Shown piece by piece: positions 11,198 through 62,507 of a stretch of DNA of 64,000 bases (positions are counted from its first letter, which is position 1; each line of letters opens with the position of its first letter). The notes beneath the pieces are model-generated. The model ran no database searches, was not told the origin of the DNA, and was given only the letters and a program-made list of their open reading frames with translations. The position numbers and the translations under genes were made by a program. The stretch comes from Alphaproteobacteria bacterium (lineage in GTDB: Bacteria; Pseudomonadota; Alphaproteobacteria; Thalassobaculales; Thalassobaculaceae): positions 62,001 through 126,000 of the forward strand of contig JANSYS010000010.1 of assembly GCA_024742275.1 (NCBI GenBank). Reading direction: 5' to 3'.

Positions 11198-11198
<1 letters not shown>
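10257..11198 (-). CDS. PLP-dependent threonine/serine (or hydroxyaspartate) dehydratase
   Basis: Predicted 313-residue fold-type II PLP enzyme that eliminates water from a beta-hydroxy amino acid. The PLP lysine is K53 in GSFKVRGA; the phosphate-binding loop SGGNHG is at 77-82 and a second glycine loop GGGGLIAG near 177. No C-terminal ACT regulatory domain is present, so it is a short catabolic form similar in size to serine racemase or hydroxyaspartate dehydratase rather than biosynthetic IlvA. Its ATG shares one base with the stop of the SDR gene upstream (TGATG), indicating coupling. Near dgcN and an aspartate dehydrogenase, a hydroxyaspartate substrate is possible but unproven. Confidence 0.8.
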
Positions 11199-11977
<779 letters not shown>

Positions 11978-12022: not shown

Positions 12023-12083
12023 ACAGACGGTACCAAGGCGGCTGGTGAGACGCGGTGGTGCCGACGGCTTGGTCGTGAAGCGC

Positions 12084-12128
12084 GTTCAGGACGACAAGAC
12101 AATTCCGTCGTTCTGACGTGCGTCAGGA
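12084..12128. repeat. Nested inverted repeats of the TCCTGACG family
   Basis: Arm TTCAGGACGAC (about 12085-12095) can pair with GTCGTTCTGA (12107-12116), and the latter overlaps an alternative pairing TTCTGACG-TG-CGTCAGGA (12111-12128). The arm sequence matches the palindromes downstream of the GIY-YIG gene, so both flanks carry the same element family. Confidence 0.65.
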
Positions 12129-12209
12129 CCAGGCCCCCGGGCCCAACCGGGCGCCGGGACAGGCCGCAGCGTTGCGGCGATCTCTTCCTGGGTCTCCCAT
12201 GACCGCGGT

Positions 12210-12512
12210 ATGCAGCCGACGGTGTACATCCTCACCAACATGAAGCGCGGCACGCTCTATATCGGCGTCAAGGCCGACCCTGCCTTGCGGATTCTCCAGC
12301 ACCATCGGGGCGAGGGTTCGGCGTTCGTTCGGCGCTACCAGCTGCATCGGCTCGTGCACACCGAATCCTACTACCGCATCGTCGAAGCCATTGGGCGGGA
12401 GAAGCAGCTCAAGGCTTGGCGGCGGGCATGGAAGATCGAGCTTATCGAGGCACACAATCCGGGTTGGACGGATCTTTGGCCCAAGGGATATCCCGATGGG
12501 CAGGGGGCTTGA
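12210..12512 (+). CDS. Small GIY-YIG nuclease
   Basis: Predicted 100-residue single-domain GIY-YIG protein of the small UPF0213/YhbQ-like type often misnamed excinuclease subunit C. The VYI (5-7) and YIG (17-19) triads, the basic segment R27-H31 and the downstream EKQLKAWRR helix (64-72, catalytic-Glu region) are all present. The end (DLWPKGYPDG) is a common tail in the alphaproteobacterial members. No strong Shine-Dalgarno precedes the ATG. Its stop codon overlaps the first base of a perfect palindrome, and related palindromes flank it on both sides, unlike any other gene here. It could be a repeat-associated or formerly mobile nuclease. Confidence 0.88.
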   Translation: MQPTVYILTNMKRGTLYIGVKADPALRILQHHRGEGSAFVRRYQLHRLVHTESYYRIVEAIGREKQLKAWRRAWKIELIEAHNPGWTDLWPKGYPDGQGA

Positions 12513-12544
12513 TCCTGACGTGCGTCAGGATGACGGAGAGAGAC
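12508..12544. repeat. Palindromic direct repeat, copy 1
   Basis: Contains the perfect palindrome ATCCTGACG-TG-CGTCAGGAT (12512-12531) and overlaps the GIY-YIG stop. The 37-bp unit recurs at 12653-12688 with two substitutions and one 1-bp indel. Confidence 0.8.
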
Positions 12545-12548
12545 CGTC

Positions 12549-12568
12549 GTCCTGATGCAAATCAGGAC
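12549..12568. repeat. Palindrome of the same family
   Basis: Perfect 8-bp arms GTCCTGAT and ATCAGGAC around GCAA. Lies between the two copies of the 37-bp unit, with spacing that suggests a structured array. Confidence 0.7.
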
Positions 12569-12652
12569 CAAGCCGCCCGCATCACCGCCGCACCCCATCC
12601 CAGCAGCCGGACTCACGTCACAACCGGTCGGAGCGCGGATGGCAAGCCACAG

Positions 12653-12688
12653 CTTGATCCTGACTTCCGTCAGGATGAGGAGAGAGAC
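12653..12688. repeat. Palindromic direct repeat, copy 2
   Basis: Contains ATCCTGAC-TTCC-GTCAGGAT (12657-12676). It nearly repeats the 12508-12544 unit and ends 8 bp before the stop of the molybdoenzyme gene, where it could also act as a transcript end. Confidence 0.8.
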
Positions 12689-12695
12689 GGCGCCC

Positions 12696-15008
12696 CTACC
12701 CCTCCACCACCGGCTTGCGCATCACCGTGACGTCCGGCACCACGCCGTCGACCTTGGCGATCTCCACAAGGGTCGAGTGCGCGGTCGGGCCCTGGCCGAG
12801 GCGGGAGGTGCCTCGGTCGCGGGTGAGGACATTCGGGTTGCCGTGGACCTCGAGCCCGCCCGGGGTCTGCGGATCGTACCAGGCGCCGGTCGAGAGCTGG
12901 ATCACGCCCGGCATCACCTGATCGGCGACGATCGCACCGGCCAGGCAGGCGCCGCGGTCGTTCCACACCCGCACCACGTCGCCGGAAGAGATTCCCCGCG
13001 CCGCCGCGTCGTCCGGGTGGATCGTCACCGGCTCGCGCCCAGCCACCTTGGAGCCCTGACTCACCTGACCGCAGTCCAACTGGCTGTGCAGGCGGGTGCG
13101 GGGTTGATTCGACATCAGGTGCAGCGGGAAATCCTTGGCTTTCTCTCCGCCCAACCACTCGTCCGGTTCGCGCCAGACCGGGTGACCCGGGCAGTCGTCG
13201 TAGCCGAAGCCTTCGATGGTTTCGGAGAAGATCTCGATCCGGCCCGAGGGTGTCTTCAGCGGGTTGGCGTCCGGATCGGCACGGAAGTCCTCCAGCATCA
13301 CCATCGGCTTTTCCGGTTCGGGAAGCTCTACATGCTCCTGCTCCCAGAAGGTCTCGAAGTCGGGTAGTTCGAAACCGGCCTCGGCGGCGCGCTGGCGCGA
13401 CTGCTCCCAGAGATGGCGGATCCAGTCCATCTCGTCCCGGCCCTCGGTATAGCGCTCCGCGAAGCCGAGCCGCTCGGCGAGACCGGTGAAGATCTCGTAG
13501 TCGGGCCGGCTCTCGCCGACCCGCGGGATGGCCTGCTTCATCGCGGAGGACAGCGGCTCCCACTTGGTGATGGACAGGTCGTTGCGCTCGAGTGCGGTGG
13601 TCGACGGGAAGACGATGTCGGCGTGGCGCGCCATCGAGGTCCAGAAGATCTCGTTGACGATGATCGTGTCCGGCTCGCGGAAGGCGCGGACGAGCTGGTT
13701 GATGTCCTGGTGATGGTGGAACGGGTTTCCGCCCGCCCAGTACACCAGCTTGATATCCGGGTAGGTTCGCCGCTCGCCGTTGAAATCGTACTCGGCACCC
13801 GGATTGAGCAGCATATCGGAGACGCGGGCCACCGGAATGAAGTCCCTTACGCCGTTGATGCCCTGGGGCACCGACGGCCAATGGAACTGCTTCACCGGGT
13901 TGCCGATACCGTTCTCCGAGCTGTAGCCGATGCCGAAACCGCCGCCCGGCAGGCCGATCTGCCCCAGCATCGCCGCCAGAACAACGGTCATCCAAATCGG
14001 TTGCTCGCCGTACTCGGAACGCTGCATCGACCAGGTGGCGTTGATCATCGTCCGCTTGGACGCCATGCGCCGGGCGAGATCGCGGATCGTATCGGCCTGG
14101 ACGCCACTGATCGCCGCCGCCCAGTCGGCGGTCTTCGGCTGGCCGTCCGTCTCGCCGCGCAGATAGGCCTCGAACGGAGCGAACCCGGTCGTGTAGCGCT
14201 CCAGGAACGCCTTGTCGTGCAGGCCTTCCGACAGCAGCGTATGGGCCAGCGCCAGCATGATCGACACGTCGGAGCCGGGGCGCGGCGCGATCCACTCGCC
14301 GCCCAGATCCGGCGGCAGGTCCGAGCGGATCGGGCTCAGATAGACCAACTCGCAGCCGGCATCGGCACAGTCGCGCAGCCCGTGGTAACAGGTGTGGCGG
14401 CCGACGCCGCCGGACGTCACCTGCGCGTTCTTCACCGGCATGCCGCCGAACATCACCAGCAATTCGCAATGCTCGGCCAGCACCGGCCAGGTGGTGTGCG
14501 TGTTCAGGACCTCGGCGAACGGGCCGACGATGTGCGGCACGATCGTCTCGGCCGCCGCGTAGGAGTAGGTACCCCGGTGGGCGACGTAGCCACCGAACTG
14601 ATTGAAGAACCGGTGGATATGGGAGTTGGCGTGGTGGAACCGTCCGGCGCTGGCCCAGCCGTAGGACCCGGCGTACATGGCGCCGTTGGCGTGCTCCTTC
14701 TTCACCCGGGCGAGCTCCTCGGACGCCATGTCCAGCGCCTCGTCCCAGGGAACGGCGACGAACGCCTCCGAGCCGCGGCCCGCCGGATCGCCGCGGTGGC
14801 GGTTCTCGAGCCAGCCTTTGCGGATATGCGGGCGGCCGACCCGGGTCTCGTGGGTGACGGCATCGACGATGCCCGGTCCGATGATCGCCGGAGCCGGATC
14901 CTTGTCGTAGTCGTGAACGGCGATCAGCCGGTCGCCCTCGACCTCGGCGAAGTAGGTCCCCCAATGGGTCGCGGTCGGAATCAGGGTACGCTTGATCGCT
15001 GTGCTCAT
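12696..15008 (-). CDS. Molybdopterin S-/N-oxide reductase (BisC/DMSO reductase type)
   Basis: Predicted 770-residue Mo-bis-MGD enzyme of the DMSO/TMAO/biotin-sulfoxide reductase family. The N-terminus has TATHWG instead of a Cys-rich Fe-S motif, and the likely Mo ligand is S115 in GSYGW (residues 114-118), typical of the serine-ligated S/N-oxide group. There is no twin-arginine signal, so it is predicted cytoplasmic like BisC, which repairs biotin sulfoxide or free methionine sulfoxide. The C-terminal cofactor-binding domain is seen around 640-760 (MSNQPRTRLHSQ, GNPNVLTRD). Only 60 bp separate it from the upstream E1-like gene, suggesting one transcript. No dedicated chaperone or cytochrome partner is adjacent. 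Confidence 0.87.
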   Translation of the reverse strand: MSTAIKRTLIPTATHWGTYFAEVEGDRLIAVHDYDKDPAPAIIGPGIVDAVTHETRVGRPHIRKGWLENRHRGDPAGRGSEAFVAVPWDEALDMASEELARVKKEHANGAMYAGSYGWASAGRFHHANSHIHRFFNQFGGYVAHRGTYSYAAAETIVPHIVGPFAEVLNTHTTWPVLAEHCELLVMFGGMPVKNAQVTSGGVGRHTCYHGLRDCADAGCELVYLSPIRSDLPPDLGGEWIAPRPGSDVSIMLALAHTLLSEGLHDKAFLERYTTGFAPFEAYLRGETDGQPKTADWAAAISGVQADTIRDLARRMASKRTMINATWSMQRSEYGEQPIWMTVVLAAMLGQIGLPGGGFGIGYSSENGIGNPVKQFHWPSVPQGINGVRDFIPVARVSDMLLNPGAEYDFNGERRTYPDIKLVYWAGGNPFHHHQDINQLVRAFREPDTIIVNEIFWTSMARHADIVFPSTTALERNDLSITKWEPLSSAMKQAIPRVGESRPDYEIFTGLAERLGFAERYTEGRDEMDWIRHLWEQSRQRAAEAGFELPDFETFWEQEHVELPEPEKPMVMLEDFRADPDANPLKTPSGRIEIFSETIEGFGYDDCPGHPVWREPDEWLGGEKAKDFPLHLMSNQPRTRLHSQLDCGQVSQGSKVAGREPVTIHPDDAAARGISSGDVVRVWNDRGACLAGAIVADQVMPGVIQLSTGAWYDPQTPGGLEVHGNPNVLTRDRGTSRLGQGPTAHSTLVEIAKVDGVVPDVTVMRKPVVEG

Positions 15009-45484: not shown

Positions 45485-47473
45485 CTATTCGAACTCGATG
45501 ATGGTCTGGTCGACCGCGAGGCTGGCGCCGGCGCTGGCGTGGATCTTGGCCACCGTGCCGTCCTTCTCGGCGCGCAGCACGTTCTCCATCTTCATGGCCT
45601 CGACCACGCAGACCTCCTGACCGGCCTTCACCGGATCGCCCTCGGCGACGGCGATGGACACCAGCAATCCGGGCATCGGCGAGACCAGCAGCTTGGAGGT
45701 GTCGGCCGCCTCCTTGGCCGGCATCTTGTCCAGCGCGTCGGCGACCCGCGGCGGCACCACCAGCACCCGCATGGACGCGCCGCCGAAGGACAGCTCGCGG
45801 TAGATGCCGTCGCGGTCGATCTGCACCGGGAACGGTTCGCCGTTCACATTGCCGTCGAACACCGCGATGGTCGCATCCAGCGCCCCCCGAACGGCGTACC
45901 GTTGGCCTTTCACCACCACGTCGTATCCGTCCTCGACCGGGCGGATCTCGACCCGGGTACTCTCGGCTCCTTCGCGAACGGTCCACAGGGTGGCGATGTC
46001 CGACTTGCCGCGATTGGCGATCTGGCCGCTGATCCGGAGCCCGCGCTCGGCGTCGTCGCGGGCGGAGGCGACGGCCAGCGCCTGCATCGCGCCCCGCTCG
46101 TAGTCGCCGATCGACGCCCCCTCGAACCCGTCAGGAAACTCCTCGGCGATGAAGTTGGTGGTCAGATCGCCCTTGCGGAACCGCTCCATGGCGATGGTGG
46201 CGGACAGGAATGGGATGTTGTGGCCCACGCCCCGGATCCGATACCGGTTCAGCGCCTCTTCCATGCGATCGGCCGCCGCCTCGCGCGTGTCCCCGTAGGC
46301 GACAAGCTTGGCGATCATCGGGTCGTAGAACATGGAGATCTCGGACCCCTCCTCAACGCCGTCGTCGACGCGGATACCCTCGACGTCCAGCGGCGGTTCG
46401 TAGCGGGTCAGACGTCCGATCGACGGCAGGAAGCCGCGGAACGGATCCTCGGCGTAGATCCGCGCCTCGATCGCCCAGCCCTCCATCTTCATCTCGTCCT
46501 GGGTCAGCGGCAGTTTCTCGCCGTAGGCCACCCGGATCATCTGCTCCACCAGATCCAGGCCGGTAACCATCTCGGTGACCGGGTGCTCGACCTGAAGGCG
46601 GGTGTTCATTTCCAGGAAGTAGAAATTCTTATCCGCGTCGGCGATGAACTCGACCGTGCCGGCGGAGACGTAGCCCACCTGTCGGGCGAGCGCGCAGGCC
46701 TGGGCGCCCATCTCGGCCCGGGTCGCGGCGTCGATGAACGGGCTCGGCGCCTCTTCTATGACCTTCTGGTGGCGGCGCTGGATCGAGCACTCGCGCTCGC
46801 CCAGATGGATGACGTTGCCGTGCTTGTCGGCCAGCACCTGGATCTCGATATGGCGCGGCTCGGTGACGAACTTCTCGATGAAGACGCGGTCGTCGCCGAA
46901 GGAGGAGCGCGCCTCGTTCATCGCCGAACGCACGCCGTCCTTGAGCTCGTCCTTGGAGTTGGCGATGCGCATGCCCTTGCCGCCACCGCCGGCGGTGGCC
47001 TTGATCATCACCGGATAGCCGATCTCCTCGGCGATCTCGGCGGCATGGTCCGGCCCCTCGATCAGCCCGACGAAGCCGGGCACCGTGCTGACGCCCGCCT
47101 CCTTGGCGATCTTCTTGGAGGTGATCTTGTCGCCCATCGCCTCGATCGCCTTGACGCCGGGACCGATGAAGGTGATGCCGGCCTTCTCCAGCGCCTCGCA
47201 GAAGGCGGCGCGCTCGGACAGGAAGCCGAAGCCCGGATGCACCGCCTCGGCGCCGGTCTGCTTGCAGGCCTCGACGATCCTGTCGATCAGCAGGTAGCTC
47301 TCGGCCGAGGGCGGCGGACCGAGCCGCACCGCTTCGTCGGCCATGCGCACATGCTTGCCGTCCGCGTCGGCATCGGAATAGACGGCGACCGTCTTGATGC
47401 CCATCCGCTTGGCGGTGCGGATGATCCGGCACGCGATCTCGCCGCGGTTGGCGATGAGGATCTTATTGAACAT
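45485..47473 (-). CDS. pccA: Acetyl/propionyl-CoA carboxylase biotin-carrier (alpha) subunit
   Basis: Predicted 662-residue biotin-dependent carboxylase subunit that carboxylates biotin with ATP and bicarbonate. Order: biotin carboxylase (FNKILIANRGEIACR, ATP-grasp KATAGGGGKGMRI near 160, EMNTRLQVEHPVTE near 290), BT-like middle, BCCP at the C-terminus with biotin lysine K628 in EAMKMEN. Typical length for PccA. Together with the beta subunit at 47604 it converts propionyl-CoA to methylmalonyl-CoA, the start of the methylmalonyl pathway. The mutase is not in the window. Confidence 0.92.
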   Translation of the reverse strand: MFNKILIANRGEIACRIIRTAKRMGIKTVAVYSDADADGKHVRMADEAVRLGPPPSAESYLLIDRIVEACKQTGAEAVHPGFGFLSERAAFCEALEKAGITFIGPGVKAIEAMGDKITSKKIAKEAGVSTVPGFVGLIEGPDHAAEIAEEIGYPVMIKATAGGGGKGMRIANSKDELKDGVRSAMNEARSSFGDDRVFIEKFVTEPRHIEIQVLADKHGNVIHLGERECSIQRRHQKVIEEAPSPFIDAATRAEMGAQACALARQVGYVSAGTVEFIADADKNFYFLEMNTRLQVEHPVTEMVTGLDLVEQMIRVAYGEKLPLTQDEMKMEGWAIEARIYAEDPFRGFLPSIGRLTRYEPPLDVEGIRVDDGVEEGSEISMFYDPMIAKLVAYGDTREAAADRMEEALNRYRIRGVGHNIPFLSATIAMERFRKGDLTTNFIAEEFPDGFEGASIGDYERGAMQALAVASARDDAERGLRISGQIANRGKSDIATLWTVREGAESTRVEIRPVEDGYDVVVKGQRYAVRGALDATIAVFDGNVNGEPFPVQIDRDGIYRELSFGGASMRVLVVPPRVADALDKMPAKEAADTSKLLVSPMPGLLVSIAVAEGDPVKAGQEVCVVEAMKMENVLRAEKDGTVAKIHASAGASLAVDQTIIEFE

Positions 47474-61490: not shown

Positions 61491-62507
61491 TTAGAACGGC
61501 TCTTCCAGACGCTTGGCCAGTTCCTCGATGTTTTCCGGCGGCCAATTGGTGATTTCCATACCGAGCGACAGCCCCATGGAGGCCAGCACTTCCTTGATCT
61601 CGTTCAGCGACTTGCGGCCGAAGTTCGGGGTCCGGAGCATTTCCGGCTCGGTCTTCTGCACCAGATCGCCGATATAGACGATGTTGTCGTTCTTCAGGCA
61701 GTTCGCCGAGCGGACCGACAGCTCAAGCTCGTCGACCTTGCGCAGCAGGTTCTTGTTGAACGGAAGATCGTGGGTCTCTTCCGCCTCGCCGCGATGGGTC
61801 GGCTCCTCAAAGTTGATGAAGAGCTGCAGCTGGTCCTGAAGGATCCGGGCGGCATAGGCGACGGAATCGTCCGGCGTCAGCGACCCGTCGGTCTCGACGG
61901 TAATCGACAGCTTGTCGTAGTCGGTGACCTGGCCGACGCGAGTATTCTCGACCTTGTAGGCGACCTGACGGACCGGGCTGAAGATCGCATCGACCGGGAT
62001 CAGGCCGATCGGCGCATCTTCCGGACGGTTCGCCGAAGCCGGCACGTAGCCCTTGCCGGTCTCGACGGTCAGCTCCATCGACAGGGTCGCGTCGCGATCC
62101 AGCGTGCAGATGACATGGTCCGGGTTCATGATCTCGATGTCGGAGACGGTCTCGATCTGACCGGCCGTCACCTCGCCCGGGCCCTCGGCCTTGAGGCGCA
62201 TCTTCTTCGGGCCCTCGCCATGCATACGAATGGCGACCGCCTTGATGTTCAGGACGATGTCGGTCACGTCCTCGCGCACGCCGGGCACGCTAGAGAACTC
62301 GTGCAGCACGCCGTCGATCTGGATCGCGGTCACCGCCGCGCCCTGGAGGGACGACAGCAGGACGCGGCGCAGCGCGTTGCCGAGAGTCAGGCCGAAGCCC
62401 CGCTCCAGCGGCTCGGCGACGATGGTCGCCTTCCGCTTGGGGTCGTAACCCGCCTGGACATCGAGCTTGTTCGGCTTAATCAACGTCTGCCAGTTCTTTT
62501 GGATCAC
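61491..62507 (-). CDS. rpoA: RNA polymerase alpha subunit
   Basis: Predicted 338-residue alpha subunit. N-terminal dimerisation domain contains [28 protein letters not shown]; the C-terminal domain for UP-element and activator contacts contains [48 protein letters not shown]. Normal length and position between rpsK and rplQ; rpsD is not in this cluster, as is usual for the class. Confidence 0.99.

Follow-up and report, generated by a model that had tools for sequence, protein, structure and literature searches.

A small GIY-YIG nuclease gene in the genome of an alphaproteobacterium of the family Thalassobaculaceae is nested in an inverted pair of REP elements, and genes of its kind are flanked by matching repeats far more often than control genes, both in relatives and in a second sample of named genomes. 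On balance, we favour the reading that the gene encodes an Ssn-type GIY-YIG nuclease with its own CGTC REP hairpins as substrate, that the gene together with its outward-tagged REP pair makes up a once-mobile unit, and that gene-less REP pairs are non-autonomous relatives of this unit. The window, that is, the whole stretch of DNA that was analysed, comprises 64,000 nucleotides (positions 62,001 to 126,000 of contig JANSYS010000010.1, assembly GCA_024742275.1), and its coordinates are counted from its first nucleotide.

The nuclease gene and its predicted product

The Ssn-like nuclease gene (12210..12512, plus strand) encodes a predicted protein of 100 aa, in which the GIY-YIG domain PF01541 (37.4 bits, E 3e-9) was the sole domain found, with no HUH/Y1 tyrosine transposase; no match to the protein was found in NCBIfam. 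The catalytic residues Y6, Y17, R27, H31, E64, K68 and N83 are all present, and these positions, together with G19, which the protein also has, show conservation of 98% or more across 128 homologs. As a single-domain GIY-YIG protein with the catalytic Tyr/Tyr/Arg/Glu/Asn set, the product agrees in this respect with an Ssn-type nuclease, and the gene is best filed under the Ssn kind. The AlphaFold2 model of the protein is confident (pLDDT 87.5). A Foldseek search with this model gave weak E-values, the closest solved folds being those of UPF0213 and SLX1 GIY-YIG proteins (1zg2, 1ywl, 6seh), and UPF0213 is also nearest by sequence. The gene is under purifying selection, with dN/dS of ~0.25 against its counterpart in the congener G004 and ~0.31 against that in G002. 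No homologs of the nuclease were found in the phages searched. A GIY-YIG homing endonuclease was considered and rejected, because the gene stands free between two complete neighbours and is not embedded in a host gene's intron or intein.

REP elements surrounding the gene

The whole unit, consisting of a REP, the nuclease gene and an inverted REP, occupies 12104..12536 (plus strand), with tags pointing outward (CGTC...GACG). Its left REP (12104..12131, plus strand) has a CCGTC tag, an 8-bp stem, a 4-nt loop and a CCA tail, and reads CCGTCG-TTCTGACGTGCGTCAGGA-CCA from position 12105. Its right REP (12507..12536, minus strand), with the GACGG tag outward, reads GCTTGA-TCCTGACGTGCGTCAGGA-TGACGG from position 12507, and its tail holds the stop codon of the gene: the TGA at 12510-12512 lies within the TTGA tail and abuts the stem directly; the sequence-only reading had placed the stop codon on the palindrome. 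To the left of the unit is a degenerate REP, TTGGTCGTGAAGCGCGTTCAGGACGACA, read from the sequence (12070..12098, minus strand, tag pointing right), which forms a weak hairpin of -4.6 kcal/mol and has as its counterpart in G002 an intact REP at 46047. On the 3' side of the gene-bearing unit is a gene-less inverted REP pair (12543-12681), of which the left REP (12543..12570, plus strand; fold z -4.3) reads CCGTCG-TCCTGATGCAAATCAGGA-CCA from position 12544 and is followed by a spacer of 81 bp, and the right REP (12652..12681, minus strand; fold z -4.6) reads GCTTGA-TCCTGACTTCCGTCAGGA-TGAGGA from position 12652, its tag being degenerate (GAGGA).

The sequence-only reading had counted at least four palindromes of one family around the gene, and these were recovered at 12111 (with one mismatch), 12513, 12550 (the A/T variant TCCTGAT..ATCAGGA) and 12658, with the degenerate REP at about 12070-12098 as a fifth; the reading missed the nesting of the gene inside an inverted pair. 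A 37-bp repeat that it had placed downstream was recovered as GCTTGATCCTGAC..GTCAGGATGA at 12507 and 12652, with 27 nt aligned at 93% identity; if a one-base shift is allowed, the match extends by eye to ~37 bp. When folded as single-stranded DNA, each REP monomer gives an 8-bp stem and a 4-nt loop, and a whole gene-less REP pair taken from elsewhere in the genome has a fold z of -10. Palindrome matches with up to 3 mismatches number 8 in the window, against 2.85 expected.

Dispersal of the palindrome and its place among CGTC REPs

The palindrome is dispersed throughout the genome (4.69 Mb), in which the exact pattern TCCTGA-N6-TCAGGA was counted at 34 sites and the reversed control pattern at 0. 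The majority of genomic copies come as inverted doublets with a spacing of 47-54 bp and CGTC on each outer side. The consensus, CCGTC(A/G)TCCTGAC..GTCAGGA(T/C)CA with a stem of 8 and a loop of 4, agrees with the definition of the CGTC REP superfamily, which comprises a CGTC tag, a stem of 8-9 bp, a loop of 4-5 nt, a CCA-like tail and head-to-head dimers (Di Nocera 2013, PMC3733652). The REPs of that survey share with those of the window the CGTC tag, 8-bp stem, 4-nt loop, CCA-type tail and mostly head-to-head dimers; they are concentrated in alphaproteobacteria, and dRS3 is counted among them as CGTC-1 (PMC3733652). The survey found no associated transposase, states at its close that no dedicated transposase exists for CGTC REPs, and makes no mention of GIY-YIG (PMC3733652), whereas the repeats studied here have a GIY-YIG gene as their regular partner. 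In the literature collection that was searched, nothing linked GIY-YIG enzymes with REP, REPIN, RAYT, dRS3 or Ssn.

Association of Ssn-like genes with matching repeats

Among 61 genomes, the pattern CGTCATCCTGA-N6-TCAGGA occurs in only 5, and in 4 of these (this genome, G002, G004 and G047) a GIY-YIG gene is found at the palindrome. The genome G047, which belongs to another family, has just two copies of the palindrome, both beside a GIY-YIG gene. In the flank test on relatives, for which a repeat was counted when present on both sides within 350 bp of the gene, matching repeats were found at 45 of 51 Ssn-like genes, as against 2 of the 16 remaining small GIY-YIG genes and none of the 19 uvrC genes, and the arrangement was inverted in 40 of the 45 flanked Ssn-like genes. 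A second sample consisted of 80 named GTDB loci with 78 testable genes, and 629 neighbouring genes from the same loci served as controls; flanks were present in 56/78 versus 19/629 (Fisher p ~4e-48), and the inverted arrangement in 50/78 versus 5/629 (2e-50). Genes without matched flanks numbered 6/51 in the relatives and 22/78 in the named genomes. A structural search detected CGTC-type hairpins on both sides of 65 of 129 genes, versus 0-2 in shuffles. Where flanks are matched, their tags point outward and they lie near the start and stop codons. Chance matching of palindromes to the gene was rejected, in view of the 45/51 and 56/78 flanked genes versus far fewer controls.

The proposal that this is a REP-associated nuclease, RAYT-like in arrangement but with a GIY-YIG enzyme, is supported: both checks that it suggested were made, and flanking of paralogous and homologous genes is far in excess of that of uvrC, other GIY-YIG and neighbouring genes. 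Of its suggestion of a repeat-associated or domesticated nuclease, the first part agrees with the flank tests; the second does not hold for the copy in the window, and fits a repeat-free clade of Sphingomonas described below. Palindromes unlinked to the gene, with the gene retained at this locus free of repeats, were not the pattern seen in the comparisons run.

Paralogs within one genome mostly have different palindromes. The second GIY-YIG gene of this genome (C7:111221; L019 2035-2622) has long copies of another palindrome, CCCCGGCACAAGGCCGGGG, on both sides; this palindrome carries no CGTC tag and is also dispersed, with 11 exact matches in this genome and 173 in G004. Across 96 flanked genes, similarity of proteins and similarity of repeats are weakly correlated (Mantel rho 0.23, higher than in any of 500 permutations), the value being uncorrected for species relatedness. 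At least 10 generic CGTC REPs were found in 10 of 23 genomes with an Ssn-like gene and in 1 of 38 genomes without one (p 1e-4), by a generic CGTC pattern that serves for co-occurrence but is blind to this genome's own REP variant. Gene and REPs do not always occur together: in G030, 62 generic REPs are found without an Ssn-like gene, and the 65 copies of the second palindrome in G002 include none that flanks any of the three genes there.

History of the locus in congeners

The left neighbour of the REP cluster, a short-chain dehydrogenase gene (11198..11938, minus strand), and the right neighbour, a molybdopterin S/N-oxide reductase gene of the bisC family (12696..15008, minus strand), are both conserved in the congeners G002, G003 and G004. 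Both G002 and G004 retain the orthologous gene and REPs in the same gap between dehydrogenase and reductase, with the unit in the opposite orientation; the unit is common to three congeners and therefore old at this locus. In G003, the dehydrogenase and reductase genes are no longer adjacent, the nuclease gene is absent from the genome, and the exact palindrome is down to 3 copies; the break in synteny (C75; L129 1405-1433) falls exactly at the REP cluster, and one degenerate REP is left beside the dehydrogenase gene. Recombination or loss could produce both the flipped orientation and the empty sites.

Inspection by eye of the same REP cluster in G004 (C1:5264469-5265370; L124 1-900) revealed an apparent IS110-type transposase. 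Two further genomes labelled as the same genus, G001 and G005, are one-contig genomes of 1.5 Mb, compared with 4.7-5.6 Mb for the congeners, and have no DNA similarity to the locus and no REPs.

Units and pairs at changed sites

Units of this kind have relocated in relatives. Six loci of Caulobacterales share a unit of ~505-590 bp in which the gene lies between inverted CCGCTCATCCTCGCGGAAGCGAGGACCCAGG repeats, and the Caulobacter unit (~510 bp) is found at unrelated sites, with two copies in one MAG (L205, L208). In most pairs of these units, homology stops at the REP tags or within ~10 bp of them; the exceptions are L213 and L221, which are syntenic, and L204 and L214, in which homology is 57 bp longer. 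At the L208 site, just 3' of a helicase-like gene, the unit is absent in four relatives (G061, G063, G064 and G067), in three of which it is present elsewhere in the genome. On plasmid AZO_p3 of Azospirillum lipoferum (L226 1372-1881), a REP-nuclease-REP unit lies between sufB and sufC. On pSymB of Sinorhizobium meliloti (L224 1165-1328), a REP pair surrounds no more than the final 81 bp of the gene, with 94% identity to the adjoining full copy; this short copy is an internal-deletion derivative.

Empty sites were sought in the congeners for six of this genome's gene-less REP pairs; one case was clear (L024), and the rest were confounded by divergence. The clear case (L024 941-1117, G000:C27:194640-194816) comprises a REP pair plus two more 50-bp tandem units in this genome, and the orthologous site has a single pair in G004, a remnant in G002 and nothing in G003. 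Ten species of a Sphingomonas clade have the gene at one conserved locus with no flanking repeats (L158, L160, L174, L176, L181-L184, L188, L194), which looks like domestication.

Comparison with known systems

A homolog in Neisseria gonorrhoeae, 50% identical to the window protein over 90 residues, is encoded by a gene surrounded by dRS3-type CGTCATTCCCGCGCAGGCGGGAATC repeats and probably corresponds to the Neisseria Ssn nuclease. The record that contains it (NZ_CP119140.1, L223; 2.17 Mb) is filed as a plasmid in PLSDB and is evidently a chromosome. The Ssn family of site-specific single-stranded nucleases, the subject of a 2025 report in Nature Communications, is reported to cut single-stranded DNA at its repeat in Neisseria and reportedly modulates natural transformation there through NTS repeats. 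Like the window protein, Ssn is a small single-domain GIY-YIG protein, with a palindromic repeat around its gene and dispersed in the genome; the palindrome differs in sequence (here TCCTGAC..GTCAGGA), and Ssn-like cleavage is a prediction for the present system. The window gene is nested in an inverted REP pair and shows signs of a mobile unit, which is not known to have been claimed for Ssn. GIY-YIG genes outside the Ssn-like group differ from it in their scarcity of matched flanks.

The RAYT/REPIN system also has a single-copy enzyme gene within inverted REPs, dispersed gene-less pairs and a private repeat for each enzyme, but its enzyme is of the HUH/Y1 type and its tag is GTAG, whereas here the enzyme is GIY-YIG and the tag is CGTC. 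Identity with RAYT/REP was accordingly rejected: the arrangement is alike, but there is neither an HUH transposase nor a GTAG tag.

Possible mechanism and alternative explanations

Our inference is that each REP hairpin is cut by its own nuclease and that the unit spreads as a result. The REP would be extruded as a hairpin when the strand is single, as in replication, uptake or repair; the nuclease would cut at or near the REP tag; and when a cut or displaced strand is repaired or joined again, the unit would sometimes end up copied, flipped or lost. The scattered gene-less REP pairs would then relate to the unit as MITEs do to transposons and REPINs to RAYTs. A wider and more tentative proposal, quite possible but held with less assurance than the reading for this gene, is that Ssn-like nucleases are the missing mobilisers of CGTC REPs, with autonomous REP-gene-REP units moved by cutting at their own hairpin ends and alphaproteobacterial REP pairs as their deletion derivatives. 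To our knowledge, a transposase-like role for the GIY-YIG fold on its own is not known in bacteria.

The main rival explanation, which we consider rather unlikely, is that the nuclease recognises the palindromes and does not mobilise them, the benefit being cellular (gating of DNA uptake, or clearing of hairpins and cruciforms at forks) and the palindromes spreading by other means. It accords with the reported role of Neisseria Ssn in transformation, with the gonococcal homolog amid its dRS3-type repeats, with purifying selection on the window gene, and with the repeat-free Sphingomonas clade, whose retention of the gene at one fixed place implies that it has a role other than mobility. A cellular role alone would leave unexplained the position of the gene inside a repeat pair, the REP-gene-REP units at different sites and the internally deleted copies.

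Some insertion sequences sit in REPs, and the apparent IS110-type transposase seen by eye in the G004 cluster would agree with REP clusters being mere landing spots for the nuclease gene as well, with no tie of enzyme to substrate; this is improbable, given that most paralogs in a genome have their own distinct palindrome, that the tags of matched flanks point outward and the flanks lie near start and stop codons, and that other GIY-YIG genes and neighbouring genes mostly lack them (2/16 and 19/629 flanked). Still more remote is the view of the palindromes as ordinary transcription or mRNA-stability signals in an intergenic gap, in the company of the gene by chance. REPs are frequently found downstream of genes (PMC3733652), but a scan of the palindromes for terminator-like or promoter sites found none, no Rfam family matched them, and the flank statistics exclude chance.

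Significance

Pairs of such an enzyme with a private palindrome are found in many bacteria, often as a unit at a changed site, which makes the Ssn-like GIY-YIG family a strong candidate to be the partner that CGTC REPs have lacked. These REPs are a large class of bacterial repeats and among the commonest short repeats in alphaproteobacteria. A regular, palindrome-specific GIY-YIG partner makes the question of a transposase for CGTC REPs directly testable, and the pairs of nuclease and palindrome form a catalogue for single-stranded DNA tools. Such a partner would amount to a second type of REP system with an unrelated enzyme fold at its core, and it connects the dRS3 repeats of Neisseria and their nuclease with a far broader range of elements.
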